Notes under the pieces: model-generated
Seen by the model: only the letters and a program-made list of their open reading frames with translations
Database searches by the model: none
Told to the model about the DNA's origin: nothing
Part shown: piece by piece, positions 38,716 through 54,589 of the stretch
How the letters are laid out: the number at the start of each line of letters is the position of its first letter
Position numbering within the stretch: the first letter of the stretch is position 1
NCBI RefSeq assembly: GCF_000980875.1
Contig: NZ_LAYO01000095.1
Coordinates: 1-64,000 of the forward strand
Direction of reading: 5' to 3'
Length of the DNA: 64,000 nt
Source of the DNA: Leucobacter sp. Ag1
GTDB lineage: Bacteria > Actinomycetota > Actinomycetes > Actinomycetales > Microbacteriaceae
Made by a program: the position numbers and the translations under genes

Positions 38716-39411
38716 TCAGCCGCCCAGATAGGCCCGCCGCAGCAGCTCGGGATCCTGCTCCAGCGCCTTCGCCGGCCCCTGCGCGTGGCTGACGCGACCG
38801 CTCGCGAGCACCATCGCCTCGTCGGCGATCCCGAGCGCGAGGTGGGTGAACTGCTCGACGAGCAGCACCCCGACCCCGGTCGCCGCGATCTGCTGGATCA
38901 GCGGCAGCAACCGCATGAACACCACCGGTGCGAGGCCGAGCGACATCTCGTCGATCAGCAGGAACCGCGGCTTCGACGCGAACGCTCGCGCCAGCACCAC
39001 CATCTGCTGCTCGCCGCCCGAGAGCAGCGCCGACTGCGCGTCGATGCGCTTCTCGAGCTCGGGGAACGACGCCAGCACCTCCTGCACGCCCGCGTCGTTC
39101 TTCGCGGTGAGCAGCAGGTTCTCGCGCACGGTGAGCGACGGGAAGATCGCGCGACCCTGCTCGATGTGCGCGATCCCCGCGCGGGCGCGCTGCACGCGGC
39201 CCCACTTCGCCATCGACCGGCCGTCGACCGAGATGTCGCCCGCCGAGTGCGGGATCACGCCCGACACCGACTCGAGCAGGCTCGTCTTGCCCGCTCCGTT
39301 CGGCCCGACGAGCGCGAGGATCTCGCCCTCGCGGAGCACGAGGTCGACCCCCGAGACCACGGGGCCGGCTCCCCGGCTCACGGTCGTTCCGCTCAACTGC
39401 AGTTCGCTCAC
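38716..39411 (-). CDS. Branched-chain amino acid-type ABC ATPase (LivF-like)
   Basis: A 231-residue ATPase. Walker A is GPNGAGKTSLLE, the Q-loop IEQGRAIFPSLTVRENL, the signature LSGGEQQMVVLARAF, Walker B FLLIDEMSLGLAP and the switch-like HIS position is in VEQFTHLAL. The Q-for-H change (VEQ) is normal for LivF. It begins at a GTG overlapping the stop of the LivM-LivG fusion (GTGA). It is the last gene of the six-gene operon that starts with MoaF at 44213. Confidence 0.92.
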   Translation of the reverse strand: MSELQLSGTTVSRGAGPVVSGVDLVLREGEILALVGPNGAGKTSLLESVSGVIPHSAGDISVDGRSMAKWGRVQRARAGIAHIEQGRAIFPSLTVRENLLLTAKNDAGVQEVLASFPELEKRIDAQSALLSGGEQQMVVLARAFASKPRFLLIDEMSLGLAPVVFMRLLPLIQQIAATGVGVLLVEQFTHLALGIADEAMVLASGRVSHAQGPAKALEQDPELLRRAYLGG

Positions 39412-41165
39412 TGCGTCACCTCCGCGTCTCCCATGTATGCGGCCACGACGGCCGGATCCTCCAGCACCGCTCCGGCCTCGCCCTGGGCGAGCACCCGGCC
39501 GAAGTCGAGCACGGTGAGCTCGGTGCAGACGGTGCGCACCAGGTCGAGGTCGTGCTCGATGATCACGATCGCGGTGTCGAAGCGCGACGGGATCCGTGTG
39601 AGGCGCTGCCCGAACTGCAGGTGCTCCTCGTGCGACAGGCCGGCGGCCGGCTCGTCGAGGATCAGCACGCGCGGGCCCGAGAGCACCGCCGCGGCGACCT
39701 CGATCAGTCGGCGGGTGCCGACGTCGACGTTGGCGAGCTGCTCCTCGGGCGGCGGGCAGCCGAGGAACGCGAGCGCATCGGCCAGCTCGTCGCGGTCGAG
39801 CGCCCGGCGGGCGACGAAGCGCACGTAGGCCTCGACCGTGAGCTGGGGCGGCACCCGGTCCTGCTGGAAGGTGCGGCGCAGGCCCCTGCGGGCCCGGGAT
39901 ACCGGGGACAGCCGGCTGATGTCGGTGCCGTCGAGCTCGACCGCGCCCGTGTGCTGCGGCAGGAAGCCGCTCACCGCGTCGACGAAGGTCGACTTCCCGG
40001 CGCCGTTCGGGCCGATGAGGCCCATGATCGAGCGCGGGCGCACCCGGAGGGACACGTCGTCGAGCGCCTTCAGCGCGCCGAACTGCACGCCGAGCCCGCG
40101 CACCTCCAGCACGGGCGGCGCGTCGGCGGGGATCGGCTCCTCGGCCTCGGGCACGGCGAACACGTCGAGCACGCTCGTCGTCACCGACCCCGGGTCGACC
40201 GCCTCCGCCTTCCGTCGTTTGGCCCGCTTGCGGATCCCGGCGCGGATCGCCTCGCCGAGGTTCGATCCGCTCGTGAGCGCCTGGATGCCCAGCACGCCGA
40301 AGACGACGAAGCCCCAGTCCTGGGGCACGCCCCAGCGCTTCAGCAGCTCGGGCACGAGCACCCACAGGATCCCGCCGAAGATGGCCATGTCGATCAGGTA
40401 GGCGCCGCTCATGATCGCGAGGATGTAGAGGGCGAGCGACTGGATCGGAGTGAAGCTCGAGGCGTACGGGATCCCGACCTGGCCGGCCAGCAGACCGCCC
40501 GAGATGCCGCCGAGCGCGGCGCTGACCGCGAACGCCGACAGCTTGGCCGCGCTGACGCTCTGGCCGACGGCCGCGGTGCCGCGCTCCGAGAACGCGACGG
40601 CCTTCCAGCTGCTGCCGATGCGGCTGCGCTGCAGCAGGAACACGCCGAGCGCGCAGATCACGAGCACGATGATCGCGAAGAAGAAGAACTGCCGATCGCT
40701 CGAGAACATGGCGGGCCGCTCGATCTGCGCGCCGTCGGCCTGGCCGGGGAACTGCGTCTGCACGAGCAGCACGTCGAACGCCGCCGCGAAGCCGAGGGTG
40801 ACGACCGCAAGGTTCACACCGCGCAGGCGCAGGGCGGGCAGGCCGATGATCACGCCGGCGATGCCGGCGCCGATGCCGCCCGCGACGAGCCAGACGATGA
40901 AGCCGCCGGGAGCGTGCGACACGTTGAGCCAGGAGACGATCCAGGCGCCGATCGCGCCGAAGGTGAGCTGGCAGAGCGCGATGATGCCCGCCGAGCCCGT
41001 GACGATGCCGAGACCGAGGATCGCGATCGTCGCCGTCACCATGCTGATGGCGAGGTAGACGACGTAGCCCGAGAGCCCGACGCTCAGAGCCCAGCCGACG
41101 CCGAGGGCGAGCACCGCCACCACGAACGGCAGCGCGACGCGGAGGGAGCGGTTAGCGAGCAGCAT
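39408..41165 (-). CDS. LivM-LivG fusion: permease joined to ATPase
   Basis: A 585-residue two-domain protein. Residues 1-310 are a LivM-type permease (e.g. ILGLGIVTGSAGIIALCQLTFGAIGAW). After a charged linker (AIRAGIRKRAKRRKAEAVD), residues about 345-585 are a LivG-type ATPase. That domain has Walker A GPNGAGKSTFVD, Walker B VLILDEPAAGLSHEEH and switch His IIEHDLDLV. Its signature is NVDVGTRRLIEVA rather than LSGGQ; actinobacterial relatives often read STGTRR there. Fusion of channel and ATPase is a known actinobacterial arrangement. It overlaps LivH by 14 bases and LivF by four. Confidence 0.92.
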   Translation of the reverse strand: MLLANRSLRVALPFVVAVLALGVGWALSVGLSGYVVYLAISMVTATIAILGLGIVTGSAGIIALCQLTFGAIGAWIVSWLNVSHAPGGFIVWLVAGGIGAGIAGVIIGLPALRLRGVNLAVVTLGFAAAFDVLLVQTQFPGQADGAQIERPAMFSSDRQFFFFAIIVLVICALGVFLLQRSRIGSSWKAVAFSERGTAAVGQSVSAAKLSAFAVSAALGGISGGLLAGQVGIPYASSFTPIQSLALYILAIMSGAYLIDMAIFGGILWVLVPELLKRWGVPQDWGFVVFGVLGIQALTSGSNLGEAIRAGIRKRAKRRKAEAVDPGSVTTSVLDVFAVPEAEEPIPADAPPVLEVRGLGVQFGALKALDDVSLRVRPRSIMGLIGPNGAGKSTFVDAVSGFLPQHTGAVELDGTDISRLSPVSRARRGLRRTFQQDRVPPQLTVEAYVRFVARRALDRDELADALAFLGCPPPEEQLANVDVGTRRLIEVAAAVLSGPRVLILDEPAAGLSHEEHLQFGQRLTRIPSRFDTAIVIIEHDLDLVRTVCTELTVLDFGRVLAQGEAGAVLEDPAVVAAYMGDAEVTQ

Positions 41166-42027
41166 CCCACACCGCCTTTCTCTGGGACCACAGAAGGAGG
41201 ACGACGATGAACACGAGCGGCACGAAGCTGCGCACGAGCGTCAGCTCGGACACCTGCGCCACCATGCCACCGACGAGGCCGAGCAGCAGACCGCCGACGA
41301 CCGCGAGGTCGAGCCGTTTGAAGCCGCCGAGCAGCGCCGCGGCCGCGGCGGGGATGATGAGCATCGACAGGCTCACCGCATCGTTCGACTGCGTCGGAGC
41401 GATGATCAGCACCGTGACCGCGCTCACCGCGCCGGTGACGGCCCAGACCCCGATCGACAGCGGCTTCGACGCGATGCCGATCAGCTCCGCCGTGGTGGGG
41501 CGGTCCGACAGCGCGCGCAGCTTCGTGCCGATGGTGGTCCTGCGCAGCACGATCGCGGCGGCGAGCGCCACGAGGATCGCGAGCGAGACGGTGACGACGG
41601 TGACCCAGCTCACGACCACTCCGGCGACGCTGAACGCGGCGCCGTCGAAGATCGGGGCGAAGGGCTGGGGCTTGTTGCCGAACATGATGTACGAGAGCGA
41701 CATGAGCAGCAGGAACGGGGCGACGGTCATGGCCGATCGGGTCGACAGGTCGGCCTCGGCGAGCCAGGTCGCCGCGATCCAGCCGATGAGTGCGCTGAGC
41801 AGGGCGCCGACGATGACGCCGGCGATCGTCGCGAGCCAGACGGGGATCCCGAGCTTGCTCGCGAACCAGACGGAGATGAACGCGGCGAACATGCCGGTGG
41901 CCGCCTGCGCGAAGTTGACGACGCGCACGAGACGGGACATGAGGGTGAGCGTGACGGCGAAGACGGCGTAGACGCCGCCCGCGGCGAGTCCGGAGAGCGC
42001 GCCCTGGAGGAGCGCGCCGCCGTTCAT
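41152..42027 (-). CDS. Branched-chain amino acid-type ABC permease (LivH-like)
   Basis: A 291-residue permease with about eight helices. The start GALSGLAAGGVYAVFAVTLTLMSRLVRVVNFAQAATGMFAAF is the classic LivH N-terminus, with N-F-A-Q standing for the usual NFAHG. The EAA-like cytoplasmic loop is LRALSDRPTTAELIGI. It pairs with the LivM half of the fusion protein. Its end overlaps the fusion gene by 14 bases. The cargo may be an aromatic acid, amide or amino acid; Liv systems are broad. Confidence 0.92.
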   Translation of the reverse strand: MNGGALLQGALSGLAAGGVYAVFAVTLTLMSRLVRVVNFAQAATGMFAAFISVWFASKLGIPVWLATIAGVIVGALLSALIGWIAATWLAEADLSTRSAMTVAPFLLLMSLSYIMFGNKPQPFAPIFDGAAFSVAGVVVSWVTVVTVSLAILVALAAAIVLRRTTIGTKLRALSDRPTTAELIGIASKPLSIGVWAVTGAVSAVTVLIIAPTQSNDAVSLSMLIIPAAAAALLGGFKRLDLAVVGGLLLGLVGGMVAQVSELTLVRSFVPLVFIVVLLLWSQRKAVWDAAR

Positions 42028-42107
42028 GCGCGCCCCCGGGTGCGGGGGCCGCGCGATGCGGGGGTGTGGTGCATGGGAACCTCTGCGGTGGGATCGATGG
42101 GACCGGA

Positions 42108-42150
42108 GCGCCCGGTGCGGCGGAACCCGAGGTTCTGCCGCACCGGGCGC
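42108..42150 (-). terminator. Strong hairpin between binding protein and permease genes
   Basis: GCGCCCGGTGCGGC at 42108-42121 pairs perfectly with GCCGCACCGGGCGC at 42137-42150, leaving a 15-base loop. It lies 14 bases past the stop of the LivK-type gene and about 80 bases before LivH on the same operon. It is likely a partial terminator or mRNA stabiliser that makes the binding protein more abundant than the membrane parts. Confidence 0.75.
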
Positions 42151-42163
42151 GGGAGCGGAGCGG

Positions 42164-43342
42164 TTACTTCGACGGCAGCTTCAGCCAGTCGTCCGCGGCC
42201 TTGGCCCAGGCGTTCGTGCCGGACTTCAGCACGACCGGCCAGCCGCCGGGCTCGTAGTCCTGCGCGGCGACCTGCTTGAACTGGTAGGGGTAGGCGATCA
42301 TCTTGTTCTCGATCGGCTTCATCTCGTCGAGCGCCTTGGCGACGCTCTCGCGGGTGATGTCGCCCTTGATGCTCTTGAGCACCTCGACCATGAAGGTCGC
42401 CGAGAGGTAGCCGCCCTGGCTGAACGAGGTCAGGGTGATGTCGTTCTTCTTCATCAGCGCCTTCCAATCGGCGTTGATGTCGCTGTCCTCGGTGAAGGGG
42501 TAGAACTCGGCGGGGACGTAGACGCCGGCCGCACTGTTCGACACGGCCTTCGCGAAGCTCTCGCTGTAGGTCGAGGTGAGGAACAGGAAGGTGACGTCGT
42601 CCCAGCCCTGCTGGTTCGCGGCCTTGATCTGGCCGATCGCGTCGGGCTCGACGGCGTTGCTCACGATGGCCGTGCAGCCGGCCTTCTTCGCCTTCACGAT
42701 GTAGGGGGTGTAGTCGGCGCCGCCGTAGGGCACGGTGTCGTCGACGAGCACGGGCTTCTTCCCGGTGATCGAGCTCCAGCGGTCGACGGCGGCCTTGTAG
42801 GCGGGGCCGGTCGAACCGATGACGCTCGTGAACACGCAGAGCTTGTCGAGGCCGAGCTTCTCGGATCCGTAGAGCATCGTCAGCGTGGTGTCGTTGAAGG
42901 GGCCGATGTTGACCGGCGCGATGTTCGGCGACTTGAAGCAGCCGGGATCGACGCCGATGCCCTGGATCGAGCGCACCTTCTCCTGCTCGTAGTACTTCGC
43001 GTTGATCTCGCAGTCGAGCAGCGATGCCGATCCGACCAGCGCGACGACCTCGTCGCTGCCGATCAGCTGGCGGGCCGATGCCGTGGCCGTCGCGGGGTCG
43101 GCCTTGTCGTCGGTGATCTTGTATTCGATCTTGCGGCCGTTGATGCCGCCCTTGGCGTTGACCTCGTCGAAGACGGCCTTCGCGGCCTGCGAGGCCTCGG
43201 GGAAGGTGGCCGGGCCGCTGATGGTGTTGACGGAGCCGAGCTTGATCGGCCCGCCACCGCCGCCGTCGCTTCCGGCGCAGCCGCTGAGCGCGAGCGCTGC
43301 GGCCGCGGTCAGGGCCGCAGCCGCCAGGAGTCGTTTCTTCAT
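42164..43342 (-). CDS. Branched-chain amino acid-type ABC substrate-binding lipoprotein (LivK-like)
   Basis: A 392-residue periplasmic-binding-protein type I lipoprotein. Lipobox ALSGC gives Cys22. The mature start IKLGSVNTISGPATFPEASQAAKAVFDEVNAKGGINGRKIE is the standard LivK opening, followed by VALVGSASLLDCEINAKYYEQ and PFNDTTLTMLYGSEKLGLDKLCVF. GAGAGGA lies eight bases before the ATG. It follows the MoaF gene by 43 bases and is separated from LivH by a strong hairpin. The ligand cannot be inferred from sequence alone. Confidence 0.93.
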   Translation of the reverse strand: MKKRLLAAAALTAAAALALSGCAGSDGGGGGPIKLGSVNTISGPATFPEASQAAKAVFDEVNAKGGINGRKIEYKITDDKADPATATASARQLIGSDEVVALVGSASLLDCEINAKYYEQEKVRSIQGIGVDPGCFKSPNIAPVNIGPFNDTTLTMLYGSEKLGLDKLCVFTSVIGSTGPAYKAAVDRWSSITGKKPVLVDDTVPYGGADYTPYIVKAKKAGCTAIVSNAVEPDAIGQIKAANQQGWDDVTFLFLTSTYSESFAKAVSNSAAGVYVPAEFYPFTEDSDINADWKALMKKNDITLTSFSQGGYLSATFMVEVLKSIKGDITRESVAKALDEMKPIENKMIAYPYQFKQVAAQDYEPGGWPVVLKSGTNAWAKAADDWLKLPSK

Positions 43343-43385: not shown

Positions 43386-44213
43386 TCAGACCGGTTGCAC
43401 GTCGGGGTAGGCGACCGATCCGAGGGGGTAGATGTGCCCGCCGGCGCGGGAGTGCTCGGCGCGGCCGTCGCCCGTGATCCCGAGGAAGATCCCCGTGGTC
43501 ATGAGCTGGGTGCCGAGGTCGTGCAGCCAGACGCTGGCGACCGCGATACGGAACTCGCGGAAGCAGAACAGGTAGAGGCCGTCCGCGAACTTCCACACGG
43601 TCGACAGGTCCATGTCGCCGTGGCCGCGCTGCACGCCCTGGACGCACTGCCAGGCGTAGCGCTCGCTCGACACGTACATGTGCTCGTAGAGGTGCTCGGG
43701 GCTGTAGCGGTACAGGTTGCGGCGGCCGATGAGGTCGCGCGACGGGCCGGGGACCTCGCCGGTGGCGGTGCCGCGGTCGGTCGTCGCGGCCCAGAACGTC
43801 TGCCCGACCCGGGGCTCCCCCTCGGTCTCGGACTCGGCGATCTCGGACCGGGTCACGAGCGCCCGGTGGGTGCGCTCGGAGTAGACGACCGTGATCGCCT
43901 CGCGCTCGCGCGTCTCGACGGGCAGGTTGAGGAACACGACGTCATCGCGCACCCGCACTGCGTCGTAGGGATCCCGCAGCTCGCCCGCGGTCGTGATGGA
44001 GCCGCTCGCCGACCAGGCGACCTCGCCGTCCTCGAAGGCGAGGCGCAGCTCGGTACCGTCGTCGAGCAGCAGGGCGAGCGTCTGCCCGTCGAGATCGATG
44101 CTCGGCAGGCGGTAGGTGTCGATCCCGGCCGCGAACTCGTCGTAGCTCCGCCACTCGTTCGGATCCGCGGCGGTCAGCTCGGCTGCGGTGGGTGCTGCTG
44201 CGGGGGTCGTCAT
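43386..44213 (-). CDS. MoaF-like protein (MoaF N- and C-terminal domains)
   Basis: A 275-residue cytoplasmic protein. The C-terminal half matches the MoaF pattern: NLYRYSPEHLYEHMYVSSERYAWQCVQG, then FADGLYLFCFREFRIAVASV and a Gly-rich HIYPLGSVAYP. The N-terminal half, with ELRLAFEDGEVAWS and DDVVFLNLPVETREREAITVVYSE, forms a lipocalin-like beta barrel. Despite the old molybdenum cofactor F name, members accompany catabolic and sulfatase/amine regulons, with no proven reaction. It heads the LivKHMGF operon and follows an AraC regulator gene, so it may bind or convert the imported compound (inference). Confidence 0.8.
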   Translation of the reverse strand: MTTPAAAPTAAELTAADPNEWRSYDEFAAGIDTYRLPSIDLDGQTLALLLDDGTELRLAFEDGEVAWSASGSITTAGELRDPYDAVRVRDDVVFLNLPVETREREAITVVYSERTHRALVTRSEIAESETEGEPRVGQTFWAATTDRGTATGEVPGPSRDLIGRRNLYRYSPEHLYEHMYVSSERYAWQCVQGVQRGHGDMDLSTVWKFADGLYLFCFREFRIAVASVWLHDLGTQLMTTGIFLGITGDGRAEHSRAGGHIYPLGSVAYPDVQPV

Positions 44214-44313
44214 CGTCCCGGGGTCCTTTCAGCGCGTCGGTCATGAGGACGTCGCATCGCGCGCCCAGCCGTCGACTGGAGAGCTTCGATGCTCGTCTTG
44301 CGCTCACTGTAGG

Positions 44314-44344
44314 GAGCGGTGAGCCGACCCGGACCGCACCGCTC
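44314..44344 (-). terminator. Hairpin after the AraC regulator gene
   Basis: GAGCGGTG at 44314-44321 pairs with CACCGCTC at 44337-44344. It is 40 bases past the AraC stop, and 100 bases of leader remain before MoaF. It probably ends regulator transcription and leaves MoaF with its own promoter. Confidence 0.55.
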
Positions 44345-44383
44345 GCGCAGCGACAAGGGGCGTGGCGCTCCGGTCAATCCGGG

Positions 44384-45361
44384 TCACGAAGCGGTTGCGG
44401 AGCGCTCCCCGAGACGCAGCTCGCTCGGCGAGACGCCGAACGCCGCCTTGAACGTGCGGCTGAAGTAGGCGGCCTCGGTGAAGCCCCAGCGCGCCGCGAT
44501 GCTCGCGACGGTGCGGTCGGCGAACACGGGATCCAGCAGGTCGGCGCGGCAGCGGTCGAGCCGACGCGACCGGATCCAGGCGGACACGGTGGTGCCGGTG
44601 CGACGGAAGACCGCGCTCAGGTGGCTCGTCGAGACGTAGTGCGCCGCCGCGATGCGCCCGGGCGAGAGGTCCGGCGACGCGAGATGGTCGTCGATGTAGG
44701 CGTAGATGCGCTGCAGCAGCTGGTGGTGCGGGTCCCGCTGCACCGGATCCGTGTCGGCGATCCCCGAGACGAGCGTGGTGACGAGGTCGAGCGCGGTGCG
44801 GGCGAGCTTGCCCCGCAGCGGATCGCTCATCGCGGTCAGCTGGGCGGGGAACTGCGCGAGGAACGCCGTCGCGACCGAGGCGAGCGCGGGATGCCGCTCG
44901 CCGAGCACCACCGCGGTGAGCTGCTCGGCGTACGGCACGGGCAGCAAGTGCTTCGGGAACATCATGACGAGGTTGCGGAAGCTCTCGTCGAGCAGCAGCG
45001 AGTACGGCTGTGAGGTATCGGTGATGGTCAGGGATCCCGGCCCGAGCGCCGCCTCGCGACCGTCCTGCACCAGGATCCCGCTGCCCTGCTGCAGCAGCCC
45101 GATCTTGTAGTACCCGCTGCCGCCGTTCGCGATCGTCTCGGGCGTGCGTTCGACGAGGTGCGGGCACGCCGTCACCTCGGTGAACACGATGTCGCCGGCC
45201 GAGACGGAGTGCATGCGCGCCGCGAACGGCGTCTCCCGCTCCGTGGTGATCCGCAGCGGGACGAACGACGCGGAGACCATGCTGCGGAACGCGGCGAGGC
45301 TGTCGGTCTGGGCGACGCCGGACCCGCCCCACGCGCCGTGCGGTGCGGTCGTGCGCTGCAT
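44384..45361 (-). CDS. AraC family regulator with FeaR/AtsR-like sensor domain
   Basis: A 325-residue regulator. Residues 1-190 are an AraC_binding_2-type domain (SLAAFRSMVSASFVPLRITT, SGYYKIGLLQQGSGILVQDGREAALGPGSLTI, FRNLVMMFPKHLLP), usual in regulators of aromatic or amine catabolism. The DNA-binding part holds IAAAHYVSTSHLSAVFRRTG and IAARWGFTEAAYFSRTFKAAFGVSPSELR. ATG 45361 follows GGAG. It is upstream of, and in line with, the MoaF-Liv operon, which it most likely activates when the transported compound binds. Confidence 0.9.
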   Translation of the reverse strand: MQRTTAPHGAWGGSGVAQTDSLAAFRSMVSASFVPLRITTERETPFAARMHSVSAGDIVFTEVTACPHLVERTPETIANGGSGYYKIGLLQQGSGILVQDGREAALGPGSLTITDTSQPYSLLLDESFRNLVMMFPKHLLPVPYAEQLTAVVLGERHPALASVATAFLAQFPAQLTAMSDPLRGKLARTALDLVTTLVSGIADTDPVQRDPHHQLLQRIYAYIDDHLASPDLSPGRIAAAHYVSTSHLSAVFRRTGTTVSAWIRSRRLDRCRADLLDPVFADRTVASIAARWGFTEAAYFSRTFKAAFGVSPSELRLGERSATAS

Positions 45362-45554
45362 CTGCTCCACCCGCCTTCGGGCCGCCGCCCGAGGGCGGGC
45401 GCGGGGTCGCCGACGCGCGTCCTCGCGGCGCCGGAGCCGCTGTGCACGCGAGCGTACACGCACGCGACCGCGGTGTCTGCGGCTGCGGCCGGACCGGGGC
45501 CGCTGGGTCAAGGGGTCGGCGTGGAGAGGCAAGGGTGCGGCGGGTTCGGGTTCG

Positions 45555-45628: not shown

Positions 45629-46396
45629 TCACGGTCGCGCGTCGTCGAGCGAGCGGAGACCGCGGCGCAGGATCCGACGGGTTTCGGGCCCGGGGCTCTC
45701 CCGCACCCATCGGATCGCGAGATCGCGCGCCCACTCGGGACTCGACTTCGCCGCGTCGTTGATCCAGTTCGCGACCGAGTCCTGCACGTACGTCGACGGG
45801 TCGGCGCGCAGCGGCTCCAGGATCGGCAGGCCCCGATCCGGTTCCGCTCCGAGCACCGCGATGCGCTTCGCCCACACCCCGCGCGGACGCAGGGTCTCGC
45901 TCGCGAAGCGGCGGATCCGCTCCGATGGATCGCTCGTCAGCTCGGCGAGCGCGGCGATGCCCTCCTCGAGTTCGGCGGCGAGCCGATCCCGCACGGCCAT
46001 CCAGGCCCACTCGCGCACCCCGAAGTGCGAGTCGTCGGCTGCCGGCAGGATCAGCGCGACGAGTTCGCGCGGGGATCCCGGCTCCGCGGCGAGGGCGAAC
46101 CAGGCCCACCCGCGCACCGTGTCCGAAGGGTGCCGCGTGAGGTCGGAGCAGGCCGATGCCTCGAGGTGGGCGCGGAGCGCTGCGCCGATGGCGCGCATCC
46201 GAGCCAGGATGCCGAGCTCTCCTGCCGCTCGCACCTCGGCCACGAGCTCGGAGGACGCGTCCGGGATCGCGTGCGCGAGCAGCACCGCATGGTCCAGCGC
46301 GGTGATCTCGACGAGCGTGCGCGACTCGATGAGGCCGCGCTGCACCTCGTCGCGCGGCGCGGACGGGCGGTTCCGGGATCCGGTCGCCAGGCTCAC
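45629..46396 (-). CDS. DNA alkylation repair-like HEAT-repeat protein
   Basis: A 255-residue alpha-helical protein. The C-terminal half has the AlkC/AlkD-type HEAT pattern: SDPSERIRRFASETLRPRGVWAKRI and DPSTYVQDSVANWINDAAKSSPEWARDLAIRWV, ending ETRRILRRGLRSL. Family members remove or bind alkylated DNA bases. Here the N-terminal part seems short and no catalytic Asp can be assigned with confidence. The GTG start overlaps the MarR stop (GTGA), so the pair is coupled. Confidence 0.8.
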   Translation of the reverse strand: MSLATGSRNRPSAPRDEVQRGLIESRTLVEITALDHAVLLAHAIPDASSELVAEVRAAGELGILARMRAIGAALRAHLEASACSDLTRHPSDTVRGWAWFALAAEPGSPRELVALILPAADDSHFGVREWAWMAVRDRLAAELEEGIAALAELTSDPSERIRRFASETLRPRGVWAKRIAVLGAEPDRGLPILEPLRADPSTYVQDSVANWINDAAKSSPEWARDLAIRWVRESPGPETRRILRRGLRSLDDARP

Positions 46397-46872
46397 GCCG
46401 TGGCCGCCGCGTTGCGCTGGATCGTGGCGAGGGCATCGACGCAGACGGTCGCGGTATCGGATCCGATGCCATCCGTGAGCCGCTGGAGCCAGGTCCCGTA
46501 GCGCGGGGCGAGCTCGGCCAGCAGCGCCTCCCCTGCCGGGGTGGAACGCAGGATGAGCGCGCGGCGGTCGCTCGGATCGGGTTCGCGGGCCGCCCACCCC
46601 GCACGGGCGAGCCCGTCGACGAGTCCCGTGACCGTGGCCCGGGTCACTCCCAACCGCTCGGCGATCCTCGCGGGTGCCGCCCCCGGCTCCGCCGAGATCG
46701 CGAGGAGTGCGGCGAAGCGCCCCTCGGAGAGTCCGTACGGTTCGAGGAGTGCAGCGCACTCGGCGTCGATGCGGCGCGCCGTGGTGAGCAGTCCCATCAC
46801 CAGCTCCGCTGCGAGCCCGCCGCCCGCGCGCTCGAGGAGCAGGGCGTGCTTGGTGTCGATCATCGCGTTCAT
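46393..46872 (-). CDS. MarR family transcriptional regulator
   Basis: A 159-residue winged-helix regulator. The recognition region reads APARIAERLGVTRATVTGLVDGLARAGWAAREPDPSDRRALILRSTPAG, with the D-x-R-x-x-x wing of MarR. It contains Cys only in ECAALLEP and VCVDAL, so redox sensing is uncertain. The leader on the minus strand has GGTGG four bases before the ATG and a CACC-GGTG inverted repeat just upstream, likely its own operator. It is coupled to the AlkD-like gene. Confidence 0.88.
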   Translation of the reverse strand: MNAMIDTKHALLLERAGGGLAAELVMGLLTTARRIDAECAALLEPYGLSEGRFAALLAISAEPGAAPARIAERLGVTRATVTGLVDGLARAGWAAREPDPSDRRALILRSTPAGEALLAELAPRYGTWLQRLTDGIGSDTATVCVDALATIQRNAAATA

Positions 46873-47858: not shown

Positions 47859-47914
47859 AAAGTATCTTGACGTCGAGATACTTTCGGCGTCTAATGAAGG
47901 TAAACCTAACTTTC
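47859..47914 (+). promoter_or_regulatory. Promoter with 26-bp palindrome and iron-box-like site
   Basis: A -35 TTGACG (47867-47872), a 17-bp spacer and a -10 TCTAAT (47890-47895) form a near-consensus promoter for the mmgE-comA pair. The -35 is inside a 26-bp near-perfect inverted repeat (47859-47884) with arms AAAGTATCT and AGATACTTT, so binding there would repress. At 47896-47914 the sequence GAAGGTAAACCTAACTTTC matches 13 of 19 positions of the DtxR/IdeR box and covers the expected start site. Two regulators are therefore possible. Which proteins bind is inferred from motif shape. Confidence 0.65.
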
Positions 47915-47936
47915 ATCGGATGATTGGAGTCGAGGC

Positions 47937-49337
47937 ATGACCGAAGTGCAGGATCTCGCCCGTTTCGTGGGCCGCGCGCGCATCGAGGACCTGAGCGCGG
48001 AGGCGCTCGAACAGCTCAAGATCCGGGTGCTCGACACCCTCGGGGTCGCGATCGGAGCGCTCGACGCCGAACCGATCGCAGCGATCCGCGGGCTGCTCGA
48101 GGATCTCGGCGGCACCCCCACCGCCACGCTCATCGGCGGCGGCGCGACCAGCCCCGAGCGCGCCGCGTTCTTCAACAGCGCGCTCAGCCGCTACCTCGAC
48201 TTCATGGACTCCTATCTCGCCCCGGGCGAGACGAACCACCCCTCCGACAACCTGGGCGCGGTGCTCGCCGCCGCAGAATCCGTCGACGCCACCGGAGCCG
48301 AATTCCTCACGGCGCTCGCGGTCGCCTACCAGGTGCACACGCGCCTCTCCGACGAAGCACCGGTGCGCGCCCGCGGCTTCGACCACACCACGCAGGGTGC
48401 GTTCGCGGTCGCCGCAGGCGCGGCCAAGGCGCTCCGCCTCACCGAGGAGCAGACCGCGAACGCGGTCGCCATCGCCGGCACCGCGAACGTCGCCCTCCGC
48501 GTCACCCGCACCGGCAACCTGAGCCACTGGAAGGGACTCGCCTACCCGCACGTCTCGCAGACGGGCACCTTCGCGGCGCTGCTCGCCGGTCGCGGGATCA
48601 CCGGCCCCGAGGCCGTGTTCGAGGGGAACAAGGGTTTCGAGGACTCGGTCTCGGGCCCCTTCGACCTGGACTGGTCGCAGGAGGACCTGGAGCGGGTCCG
48701 CCGCACCATCGTCAAGAAGCACAACGCCGAGATCCACTCGCAGTCCGCGCTCGACGCGGCGCAGGACATCCGGGCACAGGATGGCTTCACTCCGCGGGCC
48801 ATCGCGCAGGTGCGGCTCACGACCTTCGACGTCGCGCACTCCATCATCGGCGGCGGCGAGGAGGGCGACAAGCGGCTGGTGCGCACGAAGGAGGAGGCCG
48901 ACCATTCGCTGCCGTGGATGCTCGCCGTCGTGCTGCTCGACGGCCGGCTGACGCCCGAGCAGTACGCACCCGAGCGCATCGTCGCGGCCGACGTTCAGGG
49001 CCTCATGACCCGCGTCGTGATCACGCCCAGCGACGAGCTCTCGGCCCGGTTCCCCGCGCATATGCCCGCCGACCTGGAGGTCGAGCTGGTCGACGGCACG
49101 GTGTTCCGCTCCTCGCAGGACAGCTACCACGGCTTCCACGACGACCCGCTCGACTGGGAGGCCGCACGCGCGAAGTTCGACGCGCTCGCCTCCCCCTTCG
49201 CGCCCGCGGCGCTGCGCGACGAGATCGCCGGGATCGTGCGCGAGCTCGACCGCCGCAGCACCCGGGAGCTGACCGCGGCGCTCGCCCGCGTCCCGCGCAC
49301 CCGCAGCGGCGCGCACAGCGCCGGCGGCGCCCACTGA
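47937..49337 (+). CDS. MmgE/PrpD family protein
   Basis: A 466-residue all-helical MmgE/PrpD protein, a family with 2-methylcitrate dehydratase, cis-aconitate decarboxylase and iminodisuccinate epimerase activities. Visible family features are LKIRVLDTLGVAIGALDAEP, FFNSALSRYLDFMDSYLAPGETNHPSDNLGAVLAAAE and KGLAYPHVSQTGTFAALLA. KKHNAEIHSQSALDAA marks the start of the second domain. GGAG precedes the ATG by ten bases. It is followed after 31 bases by a ComA-family gene. The reaction is not set by sequence, and no propionate genes are nearby. Confidence 0.9.
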   Translation: MTEVQDLARFVGRARIEDLSAEALEQLKIRVLDTLGVAIGALDAEPIAAIRGLLEDLGGTPTATLIGGGATSPERAAFFNSALSRYLDFMDSYLAPGETNHPSDNLGAVLAAAESVDATGAEFLTALAVAYQVHTRLSDEAPVRARGFDHTTQGAFAVAAGAAKALRLTEEQTANAVAIAGTANVALRVTRTGNLSHWKGLAYPHVSQTGTFAALLAGRGITGPEAVFEGNKGFEDSVSGPFDLDWSQEDLERVRRTIVKKHNAEIHSQSALDAAQDIRAQDGFTPRAIAQVRLTTFDVAHSIIGGGEEGDKRLVRTKEEADHSLPWMLAVVLLDGRLTPEQYAPERIVAADVQGLMTRVVITPSDELSARFPAHMPADLEVELVDGTVFRSSQDSYHGFHDDPLDWEAARAKFDALASPFAPAALRDEIAGIVRELDRRSTRELTAALARVPRTRSGAHSAGGAH

Positions 49338-49368
49338 CCGACTCGACCCACCGCAGAAAGGAGCTCCC

Positions 49369-50217
49369 ATGAGCACCGCAGTCCCCCACGACGTCTCCTT
49401 CAACTTCGTCCCCCGCGCCTACCGCCCGGCGAAGCCACGCAACTTCGGCATCACCGAGATCCGCGCCCCCTATTACGACACCTTCGGTACCCGGCACCTG
49501 CAGGACGTGTTCGACGTCGCCGGCCAGTGGGTCGACGGCATCAAATGGGCGGGCGGATCCTTCGCCCTGCTGCCGCAGGATCAGGTCCGCGCCTTCAGCG
49601 ACATCGCCCACGAGCACGGCTCCTACGTCTCGTCGGGCGGCTGGATCGAGACCGTGCTCCGCTACGGCGACGACGCGGTCGATCACTACCTGAAGGAGGC
49701 GAAGGAGGTCGGATTCGACGTCATCGAGATCTCCACAGGCTTCATCATGCTCAATACTTCGGGTCTGCTCCGTCTCGTCGACAAGGTCGTGAAGGCCGGT
49801 CTGAAGGCGAAGCCCGAGCTCGGGATCCAGATCGGATCCGGCGGCGATTCGGGTGAGGCCGAACTCGCCGTCGAGGGCGCGAAGGACATCGGCGACCTCA
49901 TCGACCGCGGCCGCCGAGCGCTCGACGCGGGCGCCTCGATCATCATGATCGAATCCGAGGGCATCACCGAGAACGTGCGCGAGTGGAACACGGGCGCGGC
50001 GGCGTCCGTGATCAACGGGCTCGGGCTCGAGAACGTGATGTTCGAGGCCGCCGACGGCCCCGTGTTCGAGTGGTACGTCAAGAACTACGGCAACGAGGTG
50101 AACCTCTTCGTCGACCACAGCCAGGTGCTGCAGCTCGAGGGGTTGCGGCAGAACATCTGGGGCAACACGAGCACCTGGGGCAGGGTGATCAATCCGGCCC
50201 CGTCCGCCGAGAGCTGA
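49369..50217 (+). CDS. ComA (phosphosulfolactate synthase)-family protein
   Basis: A 282-residue TIM-barrel protein resembling ComA, which adds sulfite to phosphoenolpyruvate in coenzyme M synthesis. Matching strands are VDGIKWAGGSFALLP, YVSSGGWIETVL, FDVIEISTGF, ASIIMIESEGITENV and VNLFVDHSQVLQLEGLRQNIWG. Coenzyme M itself is not expected here and other com genes are absent, so the acceptor may differ. AAAGGAG is seven bases before the ATG. It is co-transcribed with mmgE/prpD and ended by the hairpin at 50253. The overall match to the family is good; the activity is inferred. Confidence 0.8.
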   Translation: MSTAVPHDVSFNFVPRAYRPAKPRNFGITEIRAPYYDTFGTRHLQDVFDVAGQWVDGIKWAGGSFALLPQDQVRAFSDIAHEHGSYVSSGGWIETVLRYGDDAVDHYLKEAKEVGFDVIEISTGFIMLNTSGLLRLVDKVVKAGLKAKPELGIQIGSGGDSGEAELAVEGAKDIGDLIDRGRRALDAGASIIMIESEGITENVREWNTGAAASVINGLGLENVMFEAADGPVFEWYVKNYGNEVNLFVDHSQVLQLEGLRQNIWGNTSTWGRVINPAPSAES

Positions 50218-50285: not shown

Positions 50286-50411
50286 GTCGCATCTTTCGGC
50301 AGACGGGCGTATCGTAAGAGATTTGAGGCGGAGAGGGACGGGGCAGTCCGGCCCTCTTCACGTGTGCCCGGGGGTGAAATCGCGCTTCCGGGTCGACTGA
50401 AACGGATCCGA

Positions 50412-51425
50412 ATGCCCCTGACCCCCGATGCGGAGACGAGCGACGCCCCGGCGCCCCCGTCCCCCTCACGCGCACCGCTCCGCGGGGTCGGCGCATCGCA
50501 CGCCAAGGCGATCCTGTTCGGCGAGCACGCCGTGGTCTACGGGGCTCCGGCGATCGCGATCCCGGTCGACAGCCTGACCGCGGAGTCCGTGATCGAGCGC
50601 GGCGCACCGGGCCTCCGCATCGAGAGCTCCCTCTTCACCGGCCCCGTCGAGGACGCGCCCGCGCGCCTCGCCCCGGTGGTCACGGCGATCCGCGCCTCGC
50701 TGGAGCGCGCCGGGCTCGGCGGACTCGCGAGCGGCGTCGACGCGCAGGGCGCCACCGTGCAGATCCGCAGCACGATCCCCCACGAGCGCGGGCTCGGTTC
50801 GAGCGCGGCGGTGGCCGCGGCGATCACGCGCGCCGCATTCGACCTCGCGGGGAGCGAGCTCGACGACGAGACCCTGTTCGAACTGATCCAGACCGCCGAG
50901 AAGGTCGCCCACGGCACCCCGAGCGGCATCGACGCCCGCACCGTCGCGGCGACGGGCGCCATCCGCTTCAACCGCGGCGCGGTCGCCCCGATCCGCATCG
51001 GCGCACCGCTCACCCTCGCCTTCGCGGACTCCGGCCACCCGGGCTCGACCGCGAAAGCCGTCGGTTCGGTGCAGGCCCTGCGCGAACGCGAGCCGGAGAC
51101 GACCGATGCGCTGCTCTCCCGCCTCGCCGAGATCGCCGAGGGCTCGATCGCCGACCTTGCCGCGGGCGACCGCGCAGCGATCGGCGCGGCGATGACCGAG
51201 GCGCACGGGATCCTGAACCGTGTGGGCGTCAGCTCCGAGCGGCTCGACGCGATCACCGAGGCCGCGCGCGAGGCCGGCGCGGCCGGCGCGAAGCTCACCG
51301 GCGGCGGGCTCGGGGGCTGCGTGATCGCGGTCGCCGACGACGCCGCGCACGCCGACCGGATCGGGGCGGCCATGCGCCGCGCCGGCGCCGAACGCACCTG
51401 GACCGTGGAGGTACCCGCCGCATGA
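50412..51425 (+). CDS. mvk: Mevalonate kinase
   Basis: A 337-residue GHMP kinase that phosphorylates mevalonate at C5. The opening GVGASHAKAILFGEHAVVYGAPAIAIPV (active-site Lys and Glu-His) and the ATP loop PHERGLGSSAAVAAAI are diagnostic. A catalytic Asp lies in GTPSGIDARTVA. KLTGGGLGGCVIAVA closes the fold. ATG 50412 follows the -10-like TATCGT leader about 85 bases downstream of the comA terminator. It is the first gene of the mevalonate operon and overlaps mvaD by four bases. Confidence 0.94.
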   Translation: MPLTPDAETSDAPAPPSPSRAPLRGVGASHAKAILFGEHAVVYGAPAIAIPVDSLTAESVIERGAPGLRIESSLFTGPVEDAPARLAPVVTAIRASLERAGLGGLASGVDAQGATVQIRSTIPHERGLGSSAAVAAAITRAAFDLAGSELDDETLFELIQTAEKVAHGTPSGIDARTVAATGAIRFNRGAVAPIRIGAPLTLAFADSGHPGSTAKAVGSVQALREREPETTDALLSRLAEIAEGSIADLAAGDRAAIGAAMTEAHGILNRVGVSSERLDAITEAAREAGAAGAKLTGGGLGGCVIAVADDAAHADRIGAAMRRAGAERTWTVEVPAA

Positions 51426-52375
51426 CGACCGCTACAGCTCGCGCTTTCCCGAACATCGCCCTGGTCAAGTACTGGGGCAAGCAGGACGAGGACCTGATCC
51501 TCCCCGTCGCGGGCAGCCTGTCGCTGACGCTCGATGCGTTCCCCACCACCACGACCGTCTCGCTCGATGACGCGGCGGACGACGACGCCTTCACGCTGAA
51601 CGGGGCCGCGGCCTCCGCCGACGCGACCGGTCGGGTGACCCGCTTCCTCGACCGCGTGCGCGAGCTCGCGGGATCCGAGACCCGTGCCTCGGTCGTCTCG
51701 ACCAACGAGGCGCCCACCGGCGCCGGTCTCGCCTCCTCCGCATCGGGCTTCGCCGCGCTCGCGACCGCCGCGGCGAGCGCCTACGGACTCGACCTCGACC
51801 AGCGCGACCTCAGCCGGCTGGCCCGCCGCGGATCCGGCTCCGCCTCGCGCAGTCTCGTGCCCGGTCTCGCCGTCTGGCACGCGGGCGAAGACGCGAGCTC
51901 GTACGCGGAGGCCGTGACGGGCCCCGACATGCGCATGGTCATCGTCACGGTCGATACGGCCCAGAAGGCCGTCTCGAGCCGCGCGGCCATGCGCCGTTCG
52001 GCGCTCACCTCCCCGTTCTTCCCCGCGTGGATCTCGTCGACCGAGGAGTCGCTCGCGGCGATGCTCGAGGCCTGCGCGGCCGAGGACTTCACGCGCGTGG
52101 GCCGCATCACCGAGTCGCACGCGCTGCGCATGCACGCCGTGATCCAGGCCTGCGATCCGCCCATCCGCTACCTGGCGCCCGCGAGCATCGCGATCTTCGA
52201 CGCCGTGGCCGCGCTGCGCGACATGGGCCTCGAGGCGTACTCGACCGCCGACGCGGGCCCCAACGTGGCCGTGATCGTGCGCCCGGAGCAGGCGGAAGAT
52301 CTGGTCGCCGCGCTGCAGGGATTCGGCTCGGTGCGCCTCGTGGGCCCGGGTGCGGGCGCGGAGGTGCTCGCGTGA
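51422..52375 (+). CDS. mvaD: Diphosphomevalonate decarboxylase
   Basis: A 317-residue GHMP enzyme that makes IPP from mevalonate 5-diphosphate with ATP. NIALVKYWGKQDEDLILPVAGSLSLTLD is the family hallmark. EAPTGAGLASSASGFAALATAA is the ATP loop. The catalytic Asp lies in the later segment SASRSLVPGLAVWHAG region. It sits between mevalonate kinase and phosphomevalonate kinase with 4-base overlaps on both sides, as in other actinobacterial mevalonate operons. Confidence 0.95.
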   Translation: MTTATARAFPNIALVKYWGKQDEDLILPVAGSLSLTLDAFPTTTTVSLDDAADDDAFTLNGAAASADATGRVTRFLDRVRELAGSETRASVVSTNEAPTGAGLASSASGFAALATAAASAYGLDLDQRDLSRLARRGSGSASRSLVPGLAVWHAGEDASSYAEAVTGPDMRMVIVTVDTAQKAVSSRAAMRRSALTSPFFPAWISSTEESLAAMLEACAAEDFTRVGRITESHALRMHAVIQACDPPIRYLAPASIAIFDAVAALRDMGLEAYSTADAGPNVAVIVRPEQAEDLVAALQGFGSVRLVGPGAGAEVLA

Positions 52376-53466
52376 TCGAGCACCGCGCGCCGGGCAAGCT
52401 CTACATCGCCGGCGAGTACGCCGTCGTGGATCCGGGGCAGCCCGCCGTGATCGTCGCCGTCGATCGCTACATCACGGTGCGTCTCACCGAGGGCTCCGAG
52501 GTGGGTCGCGTGCGCTCGAGCGCGTACGGCCGCTCGCCGCTCGTCTGGGTGCGCGACGACGCGAGCGACCGGATCGTGATCGAGCACCAGCCGTCGGACT
52601 ACGTCTTCGCGGCGATCACCGTGGTCGAGCAGCTGCGCTCCGAGCTGCGGCTGCCGCCGCGCTACTACGATCTCGACATCGGCAGCGAGCTCGACGACGT
52701 GAGCGGCCGCAAGTTCGGCCTCGGGTCCTCCGCGGCGGTCACCGTCGCCGTCGTGGCCGCGCTCGACGAGTTCTACGGCCTCGACCTCACCCGCACCGAG
52801 CGGTTCAAGCTCGCCCTGCTCGCGACCTGCGAGGTCGCGCCCGCGGCCTCCGGCGGCGACCTCGCGGCGAGCACCTTCGGCGGTTGGATCCGCTACTCCT
52901 CGCCCGACCGGGGCGCGCTCCGCACCCACCGCGCCGTGCACGGGGTCGCCGCGACGCTCGCGGCGACGGCCGAGTGGGCGGGATGCGGGGTCACGCGCCT
53001 GCCGAACCCGGACTCCCTGCAGCTGCTCGTCGGCTGGACCGGGTCCCCGGCCTCCACCGAGCGCCTCGTCGAGCAGGTGCGGCACTCCGACGGGCGCCGC
53101 CCGCTGCAGCCGTACCCCGAGTTCAGCACCGACAGCCGGGCCTGCGTCGACGACCTGGTCGCCGCGTTCGAGCAGCGCGGCGCGGGAGCGCCCGCGGTGA
53201 TCAGCCGGGCCCGCCGGGTGCTGCAGCGCCTGAGCGAGACGTCGGGGATCACGATCGAGACCTCGCAGCTGCGCGCGCTCTGCGACATCGCCGAGCGGCA
53301 CGGTGCGGCGGGCAAGCCGTCCGGCGCCGGCGGCGGCGACTGCGGTATCGTGCTCGCGAACGCAGAGCTCTCGACCGATCCGGTCCTGCGCGAGTGGGAG
53401 GCGAACGACATCCGTCGCCTCAGCCTCGCCCCGCACCCCGCATCAGGAGGCATCGATGCATTCTGA
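52372..53466 (+). CDS. Phosphomevalonate kinase
   Basis: A 364-residue GHMP kinase of the bacterial phosphomevalonate kinase type. APGKLYIAGEYAVVDPGQPAVIVAVDRYITV and KFGLGSSAAVTVAVVAALDEF identify it, and ASGGDLAASTFGGWIRY holds the catalytic Asp. SGAGGGDCGIVLAN is the C-terminal loop. It starts with a GTG overlapping the mvaD stop (GTGA). It overlaps the following IPP isomerase by 11 bases, with AGGAGG for the isomerase inside its coding end. Confidence 0.94.
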   Translation: MIEHRAPGKLYIAGEYAVVDPGQPAVIVAVDRYITVRLTEGSEVGRVRSSAYGRSPLVWVRDDASDRIVIEHQPSDYVFAAITVVEQLRSELRLPPRYYDLDIGSELDDVSGRKFGLGSSAAVTVAVVAALDEFYGLDLTRTERFKLALLATCEVAPAASGGDLAASTFGGWIRYSSPDRGALRTHRAVHGVAATLAATAEWAGCGVTRLPNPDSLQLLVGWTGSPASTERLVEQVRHSDGRRPLQPYPEFSTDSRACVDDLVAAFEQRGAGAPAVISRARRVLQRLSETSGITIETSQLRALCDIAERHGAAGKPSGAGGGDCGIVLANAELSTDPVLREWEANDIRRLSLAPHPASGGIDAF

Positions 53467-54589
53467 TCACCGCGAGATCCCGGGATCCCGAGCCGCCCGC
53501 AAGGACGAGCACGTCGACCTCGCCCTCGACCAGCGCGGCGCGGCCACGCGCAACGAGTTCGACGAGCTCGACTTCGTGCACCAGGCGCTCGGCGGGGTGG
53601 ACGCCGACCGCATCGACCTCGGGGTGACGATCCCCTTCGGCGCGGGTGCCCGGCACGACGCCGGCGAGTGGCACTGGCGGACCCCGTTCTACGTGAACGG
53701 CATGACGGGCGGCACCGAGCGCACCACGCGGATCAACCGCGAGCTCGCGATCGCCGCGCGCGAGACCGGCATGCCGATGGCCTGCGGCTCCGTCTCGGTC
53801 GCCCTCGACGATCCCGATGCCGCCCGCGGCTTCGCCGTGATCCGCACCGAGAACCCCGACGGCTTCGTCATGGCGAACGTCGGCGTCGGTCGGCCCGCCG
53901 CGGACGCGCCCCGCGCAGTCGAGCTGCTCGGCGCCGACGCGCTGCAGGTGCACGTCAACGCGGTGCAGGAGACGGTGATGCCCGAGGGCTCCCGGGACTT
54001 CTCCTCTTGGCTGTCCTCGGTCGAGCAGCTCGCGGCCGCGTCGCCCGTGCCCGTGGTCGTCAAGGAGGTCGGCTTCGGCCTGAGCCGGGCCACCCTGCGC
54101 CGGCTCTCCGACATCGGCGTGCGCCTCGCCGACGTGAGCGGCCGCGGCGGCACCGACTTCCTCCGCATCGAGAACGCCCGGCGCGAGGCCGGCGAGTACG
54201 CGATGCTGACGGGCTTCGGCCAGTCGGCGCTCGCGAGCCTGCTCGACGCCCCTACGGACTCCCCCACGCTGCTGGCGTCGGGCGGGGTCCGCACCCCGTA
54301 CGACGTCGTCAAGGCGCTGGCCGCCGGTGCCCGCGCCGTCGGCGTCGCCGGAGCGTTCCTCGAGGCCATCGGCCCCGACGGCACCGGCGGCGGCGCGGAG
54401 CGCCTCATCGCCCTCGTCGAGGACTGGAAGGCGCGCACGCGCGCCGTCTACGCGCTGCTCGGCGCCACCACCCGCGACGAGCTGCTCGCCGCCGACCTCA
54501 TCCTCCGCGGCCGGCTCCGGGAATTCTGCGCCGACCGCGGCGTTGACCTCCGTGGCCTCGCCTCCCGCTCCGAGGCGCCCCGCGCATGA
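53456..54589 (+). CDS. fni: Isopentenyl-diphosphate delta-isomerase, type II
   Basis: A 377-residue FMN-dependent TIM-barrel isomerase that converts IPP to DMAPP. RKDEHVDLAL at the start, FYVNGMTGGTERTTRINRELA, PMACGSVSVAL, MANVGVGRP, ALQVHVNAVQETVMPEGSRDF and VVVKEVGFGLS are all standard. The FMN phosphate site is LLASGGVRTPYDVVKALAAGA. The strong AGGAGG five bases before ATG 53456 settles the start. It is unrelated to the type I Nudix isomerase and is characteristic of the mevalonate cluster in Gram-positive bacteria. Confidence 0.95.
   Translation: MHSDHREIPGSRAARKDEHVDLALDQRGAATRNEFDELDFVHQALGGVDADRIDLGVTIPFGAGARHDAGEWHWRTPFYVNGMTGGTERTTRINRELAIAARETGMPMACGSVSVALDDPDAARGFAVIRTENPDGFVMANVGVGRPAADAPRAVELLGADALQVHVNAVQETVMPEGSRDFSSWLSSVEQLAAASPVPVVVKEVGFGLSRATLRRLSDIGVRLADVSGRGGTDFLRIENARREAGEYAMLTGFGQSALASLLDAPTDSPTLLASGGVRTPYDVVKALAAGARAVGVAGAFLEAIGPDGTGGGAERLIALVEDWKARTRAVYALLGATTRDELLAADLILRGRLREFCADRGVDLRGLASRSEAPRA

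Follow-up and report, generated by a model that had tools for sequence, protein, structure and literature searches.

A conserved MmgE/PrpD–ComA-like gene pair in Leucobacter: a possible iron–sulfur-free substitute for aconitase

Introduction

What might a cell do with two adjacent enzymes, one of the MmgE/PrpD family and the other with the fold of ComA, the phosphosulfolactate synthase? Such a pair lies on a contig of Leucobacter sp. Ag1 (NZ_LAYO01000095.1, positions 1 to 64,000; 'the window' means this whole stretch of 64,000 nucleotides). A preliminary description read the pair as a possible two-step sulfonate or C–S bond pathway, in which the MmgE/PrpD enzyme would make an acceptor to which the ComA-like protein would then add a nucleophile such as sulfite. 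We favour another answer. That the pair is an iron-starvation, iron–sulfur (Fe–S)-free, two-enzyme substitute for aconitase, and thus an iron-sparing bypass, we hold to be slightly more probable than not. The wider proposal, an Fe–S-free aconitase of two unrelated enzymes that extends across bacteria and haloarchaea, is wired to DtxR in many actinobacteria and carries the acnA/icd operator in many of those, seems to us evenly poised. The features on which the argument turns are these:

47863–47880, no strand: palindrome TATCTTGACGTCGAGATA, operator-like, over the presumed −35 element and just upstream of the iron box
47867–47895, plus strand: presumed promoter, TTGACG (47867–47872), 17-bp spacer, TCTAAT (47890–47895), assigned by eye
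47896–47914, no strand: predicted DtxR/IdeR-type iron box GAAGGTAAACCTAACTTTC, ending 22 bp before the MmgE start
47937–49337, plus strand: MmgE/PrpD family gene, 466 aa (PF03972, 5.9e-75; PF19305, 4.2e-39), proposed Fe–S-free citrate dehydratase
49369–50217, plus strand: ComA-fold gene, 282 aa (PF02679, 3.7e-71), lacking the ComA motifs, candidate cis-aconitate hydratase

Iron box and DtxR

Is the pair controlled by iron? We scored the window with a DtxR matrix built from 25 published sites, from which the site of the Corynebacterium glutamicum gene cg2796 had been excluded, at a cut-off of 10. The box before the pair scores 14.5, the highest value in the 64 kb; the next non-overlapping site reaches 6.8. 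The host genome (G000, contig C41) encodes a DtxR (NF053665, 315 bits; cut-off 290). A DtxR-type site of at least 10 stands before the pair in 36 of 54 actinobacterial loci, while among the 648 regions upstream of the remaining called genes there, 22 have one (Fisher 9.5e-32, a value that overstates independence because loci within a genus are related). In 37 of the 54 it is the top-scoring site of its own locus, and at least one such site occurs in 17 of 24 genus-level groups. Outside the actinobacteria the evidence for iron boxes is thin. A scan with a Fur consensus gave weak Fur-like sites in three of 16 non-actinobacterial paired loci (L071, L078 and L108; nominal p 0.003, 0.007 and 0.013, uncorrected).

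The same arrangement is known from C. glutamicum, where cg2796–cg2797, described as genes for an MmgE/PrpD protein and a homologue of ComA, form an operon whose first gene is closely preceded by a DtxR site. That site, 19 bp long, lies 18 bp upstream of cg2796, and expression rises 1610-fold in a dtxR mutant (PMC1382209). Among Corynebacterium copies, L150, L151, L152 and L162 have a strong site and L156–L159 have none. The L150 site differs from that of C. glutamicum by one base and keeps the 18-bp distance; through L150, cg2796–cg2797 is very probably the orthologous pair. In the parts of the literature consulted the operon figures as DtxR-repressed, with neither an assigned function or reaction nor a palindrome link to acnA or icd.

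A palindrome shared with acnA and icd

If DtxR reads the iron box, what reads the palindrome beside it? A whole-genome search of G000, allowing at most one mismatch, found the palindrome at four places and a reversed control at none. One is upstream of the pair. The others lie about 105 bp before the AcnA reading frame, before icd (NADP-dependent isocitrate dehydrogenase), and 78 bp after gdhA, before a protein without an NCBIfam match. As a separate observation at the last place, a G000 DtxR gene precedes the NADP-glutamate dehydrogenase gene (L220, 700–1416 and 984–2840), the palindrome lying past the latter.

The strict palindrome pattern precedes MmgE in 27 of 72 upstream regions. We then compared acnA upstream regions from 40 genomes, 22 picked with the strict palindrome at the pair and 18 without. 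At a cut-off of 13 of 16 positions, fixed after the acnA scores were visible, the palindrome is present at both genes in 25 genomes, at the pair only in one, at acnA only in three and at neither in 11 (Fisher p = 1.7e-6, Spearman 0.78, in a non-random set that includes relatives). No upstream region of another gene in the pair loci reaches the cut-off (0 of 439). Brevibacterium daeguense (L080) has no MmgE beside its ComA-like gene, yet about 200 bp upstream of that gene the palindrome is present. We conclude that in many actinobacteria the pair is very likely under iron control and that in many of these it is also tied to the citrate–isocitrate segment.

Conservation and distribution of the pair

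How constant is the arrangement? The two genes lie where the preliminary description had placed them and have the expected domains; they run in the same direction and are 31 bp apart. The nearest named relative among the matches listed is Leucobacter sp. OLIS6 (L029; ComA 98% and MmgE 97% identical), and the host genome has one other MmgE-family match, 31% identical and on a different contig. A search of genome contigs for relatives of the ComA-like protein gave 109, of which the best 80 were compared. In 71 of these 80 loci the gene immediately 5' of ComA is MmgE, with a median gap of 39 bp across related loci; this count sets aside the worry, voiced in the preliminary description, that the pair might be found only here. 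MmgE is truncated by the contig end in L102; in Gulosibacter chungangensis (L068), a decayed copy, it is split in two pieces and lacks its middle. Pieces or remnants of the pair also occur in three Corynebacterium-group genomes (L163/L167, L164/L168 and L165).

The hosts are Actinomycetota, alpha-, beta- and gamma-Proteobacteria and one Bacteroidota metagenome-assembled genome, several of the others being assemblies of that kind. Salinibacter and haloarchaea also carry the pair, on plasmids. We opened 19 plasmid records, with ComA 45–64% identical. An MmgE gene lies within the fetched stretch in 16 of the 18 that were annotated; ComA adjoins it in nine, and genes intervene in seven, all haloarchaeal. 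Distribution is patchy: three of 60 relatives have the pair, the host genome counted. A class sample of 394 yielded the host genome and two genomes with a 50–56% identical ComA copy that has no MmgE nearby, and 13 of 242 genomes in a Corynebacterium sample have a near-full-length copy (17 have any match). Flanking genes change between genera. Beyond the pair, and shadow open reading frames inside it, no gene cluster is common to more than 10 of the 81 compared loci, and the clusters that reach 10 are Brevibacterium loci. Patchy spread with genus-specific flanks is what one expects of a small function, complete in itself, that acts on a metabolite common to most cells. The two enzymes do form a genuine unit, isolated and conserved.

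Identity of the two enzymes

Are these the enzymes that their annotations name? The MmgE protein has the N and C domains and the fold of its family, shared with 2-methylcitrate dehydratase and cis-aconitate decarboxylase. Against the PrpD equivalogs it scores 139.6, 109.4 and 96.8 bits, reaching none of the cut-offs (950, 575 and 458), and where PrpD systems have prp genes as partners, this MmgE has a ComA-like one. By profile, 2-methylcitrate dehydratase PrpD is the best match and cis-aconitate decarboxylase the second; by fold the two tie. The invariant H101 aligns with H103 of the decarboxylase, while the motifs HPSDN and AEIHSQ look nearer to PrpD in an alignment judged by eye. We know of no need for an Fe–S cluster in this family.

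The ComA family is a barrel that adds a nucleophile to an enol acid by enolase-like chemistry. The pair's ComA-like protein has the PF02679 domain and the ComA fold, but at 69.1 bits it falls far short of the ComA equivalog TIGR03849 (cut-off 280). Phosphosulfolactate synthase (1qwg, 1u83, Xaut_5069) has the motifs EVGxK and RESG, taken here as those common to proteins of that name from Methanocaldococcus jannaschii (M. jannaschii), B. subtilis and Xanthobacter; neither is present in any of 98 pair-type sequences, one of which is a six-residue remnant. The phosphate-binding residues, whose lack the preliminary description had counted against its own reading, look to be missing at the level of sequence motifs. 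Sequence evidence supports the view that the pair is conserved, that a DtxR box precedes it, that its palindrome is shared and that the ComA motifs have been lost.

A possible iron–sulfur-free route from citrate to isocitrate

How might the pair work? When iron is low DtxR would leave the box and the pair would be expressed, and a second regulator, at the palindrome, would tie it to the citrate–isocitrate–2-oxoglutarate segment. The MmgE/PrpD enzyme would dehydrate citrate to cis-aconitate. To this the ComA-fold enzyme would add water, as ComA adds sulfite, and yield isocitrate; by analogy with what is thought for ComA, it is probably an Mg-dependent barrel that stabilizes an enolate. With a dehydratase family for citrate-like acids beside a nucleophile-adding barrel, the simplest chemistry would be citrate to cis-aconitate to isocitrate without Fe–S, and a control site common to the pair, aconitase and isocitrate dehydrogenase, together with the iron response, makes a citrate-to-isocitrate role without an iron–sulfur enzyme possible. 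We infer on these grounds that box and palindrome are bound, which substrates the two enzymes use, which metal takes part, and that hydration occurs and in which direction.

Aconitase AcnA is a [4Fe–4S] enzyme. It catalyses the same overall reaction as proposed for the pair, but as a single Fe–S protein of a different family, whereas the pair comprises two proteins whose folds differ from it and for which no Fe–S cluster is known. Fumarase exists in an iron-free form; we know of no description of an Fe–S-free aconitase. Such an enzyme would benefit cells short of iron or under oxidants or copper. If the proposal is right, a widespread pair whose annotations point to propionate and coenzyme M metabolism lets cells bypass, and so save iron at, an early citric acid cycle step; the ComA fold gains a new reaction; and an operon that DtxR strongly represses in an industrial model bacterium, so far unexplained, acquires a function.

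The proposal agrees with published iron and citrate physiology: RipA represses aconitase when iron limits (PMC6701010), and in C. glutamicum at pH 6 an iron-starvation response accompanies a rise in citrate and a fall in 2-oxoglutarate, cg2796–97 being among the DtxR genes that respond (PMC2807442). Literature searches on iron-independent aconitase, and on aconitase together with 2-methylcitrate dehydratase, iron starvation and C. glutamicum, gave, among the matches listed, no title or abstract opening that puts this function forward. Nor did literature searches find a text joining phosphosulfolactate synthase with MmgE, or DtxR with 'mmge prpd'.

A number of observations weigh against the proposal. 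The conversion of citrate to isocitrate by the pair is proposed from DNA sequence. AcnA was found in 50 of the 50 pair- or ComA-bearing genomes searched, and in G000; the pair is therefore at most a backup, and a role as sole aconitase is rejected. A common operator is evidence of common control, not of a common reaction, and its cut-off, as noted, was set late. A promoter and terminator scan with a stricter consensus called neither the promoter nor a terminator. Some members of the ComA-like subfamily have no MmgE nearby (nine of the 80 loci; L027 and L028). No DtxR-type box at the cut-off was found in 18 of the 54 actinobacterial loci; iron boxes were seen in one of 16 haloarchaeal loci (Halorientalis, with DtxR-like palindromes before both genes); no Fur-like site at 0.05 in the other 13 paired loci and two ComA-only loci; and no iron-type site in the alpha-Proteobacteria tested. 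In C. glutamicum, it is reported that citrate accumulated at pH 6 despite raised expression of the pair (PMC2807442) and that indole tolerance was unchanged by cg2796–97 deletion or overexpression (PMC7764795). Our PF02679 search of a C. glutamicum control genome gave no match, contrary to the literature.

Alternative explanations

Could the pair act on citrate or aconitate and yet make something else, such as itaconate, trans-aconitate or a citrate-derived metal chelator, as detoxification or iron capture when aconitase fails? We think this unlikely, though the likeliest of the alternatives. The two MmgE motifs lean towards PrpD rather than the decarboxylase, neither an exporter nor a regulator is conserved beside the pair, and the palindrome is found also at icd, which points to isocitrate and 2-oxoglutarate production. 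The same two-enzyme logic would fit an Fe–S-free substitute for isopropylmalate isomerase (LeuCD) or for the methylaconitate step of the 2-methylcitrate cycle. MmgE is closest to 2-methylcitrate dehydratase, and some Corynebacterium loci have ilvC-, serA- or leuB-like neighbours (by eye). Those neighbours were not found in other genera, however, and it is acnA and icd with which the pair shares its palindrome, none of the four places in G000 being at leuC or prp genes; we give this substitute a little less credence. On a par with it we place some other iron-starvation role, with substrates unspecified, in which the palindrome merely reports the carbon or nitrogen state. Operators can join enzymes of separate steps, and of the four palindromes in G000 one is flanked by gdhA and by the protein that has no NCBIfam match. 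Yet there are just four such places, two of them before acnA and icd, and MmgE is a family of citrate/aconitate-type enzymes.

What remains of the sulfonate route, in which sulfite would be added to an MmgE-made unsaturated acid or to phosphoenolpyruvate (PEP), perhaps to take up sulfite that an iron-dependent sulfite reductase can no longer reduce? The ComA fold speaks for it, as do sulfur-related genes near some copies: DsrE in Salinibacter, a sulfurtransferase in Halorussus and, by eye, a YeeE-like gene in Brevibacterium. But these genes are not conserved neighbours between genera, and the motif loss, the equivalog score and a regulation that indicates iron and citrate together displace it as the best reading; we hold it very improbable. 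Half of the two-step idea survives, since the MmgE/PrpD enzyme probably does make an unsaturated acid for the ComA-fold enzyme, while sulfite or PEP chemistry is unsupported. The sulfatase that had been brought into the argument does lie about 12 kb away, but it is no conserved neighbour of the pair in the compared loci. Propionate and coenzyme M genes are absent, as had been said, from the 19 window proteins scanned with Pfam, the pair included.

Neighbouring genes

The sulfatase gene (PF00884) occupies 33554–35869 and ends about 12 kb upstream of the pair. Between the two lie a MoaF-like protein, an AraC-type regulator and a branched-chain-type ABC transporter with its binding protein (43386–45532 and 39408–43342), which look like a separate uptake or catabolic unit, and a MarR-type regulator gene on the minus strand (46393–46872), about 1 kb before the pair. 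A comparison with PHROGs gave no match. On the 3' side, Pfam matches outline a mevalonate-pathway cluster (50400–54589) of three GHMP-kinase/MVD-type genes and an FMN-dependent dehydrogenase-like gene. We considered and rejected a functional link to mevalonate: by eye, the pair has a mevalonate-kinase-like gene after it in the window and in four of the listed loci (two Leucobacter, Agrococcus and Microbacterium). Since it is absent in the others, the site looks like an insertion place.

Elsewhere the surroundings differ. In ten Brevibacterium loci (L043, L044, L047, L051, L053, L055, L060, L062, L065 and L086) the YeeE-like gene, named by eye as a membrane protein, lies 5' of the pair and divergent from it. 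On a Bradyrhizobium plasmid (L114, 5367–8795), the one examined of seven of that kind among the matches listed, genes for MmgE, PrpF and a ComA-like protein of only distant similarity (27%) lie near a tricarboxylate-transporter binding protein. Copper damages Fe–S dehydratases, and the haloarchaeal copies L145, L146 and L144 are near genes for a copper P-type ATPase, cupredoxin or plastocyanin-like proteins. The copy on a Salinibacter ruber plasmid (L111) has Dps and DsrE genes on its flanks, and FeoA and ZIP genes are found less than 10 kb away.
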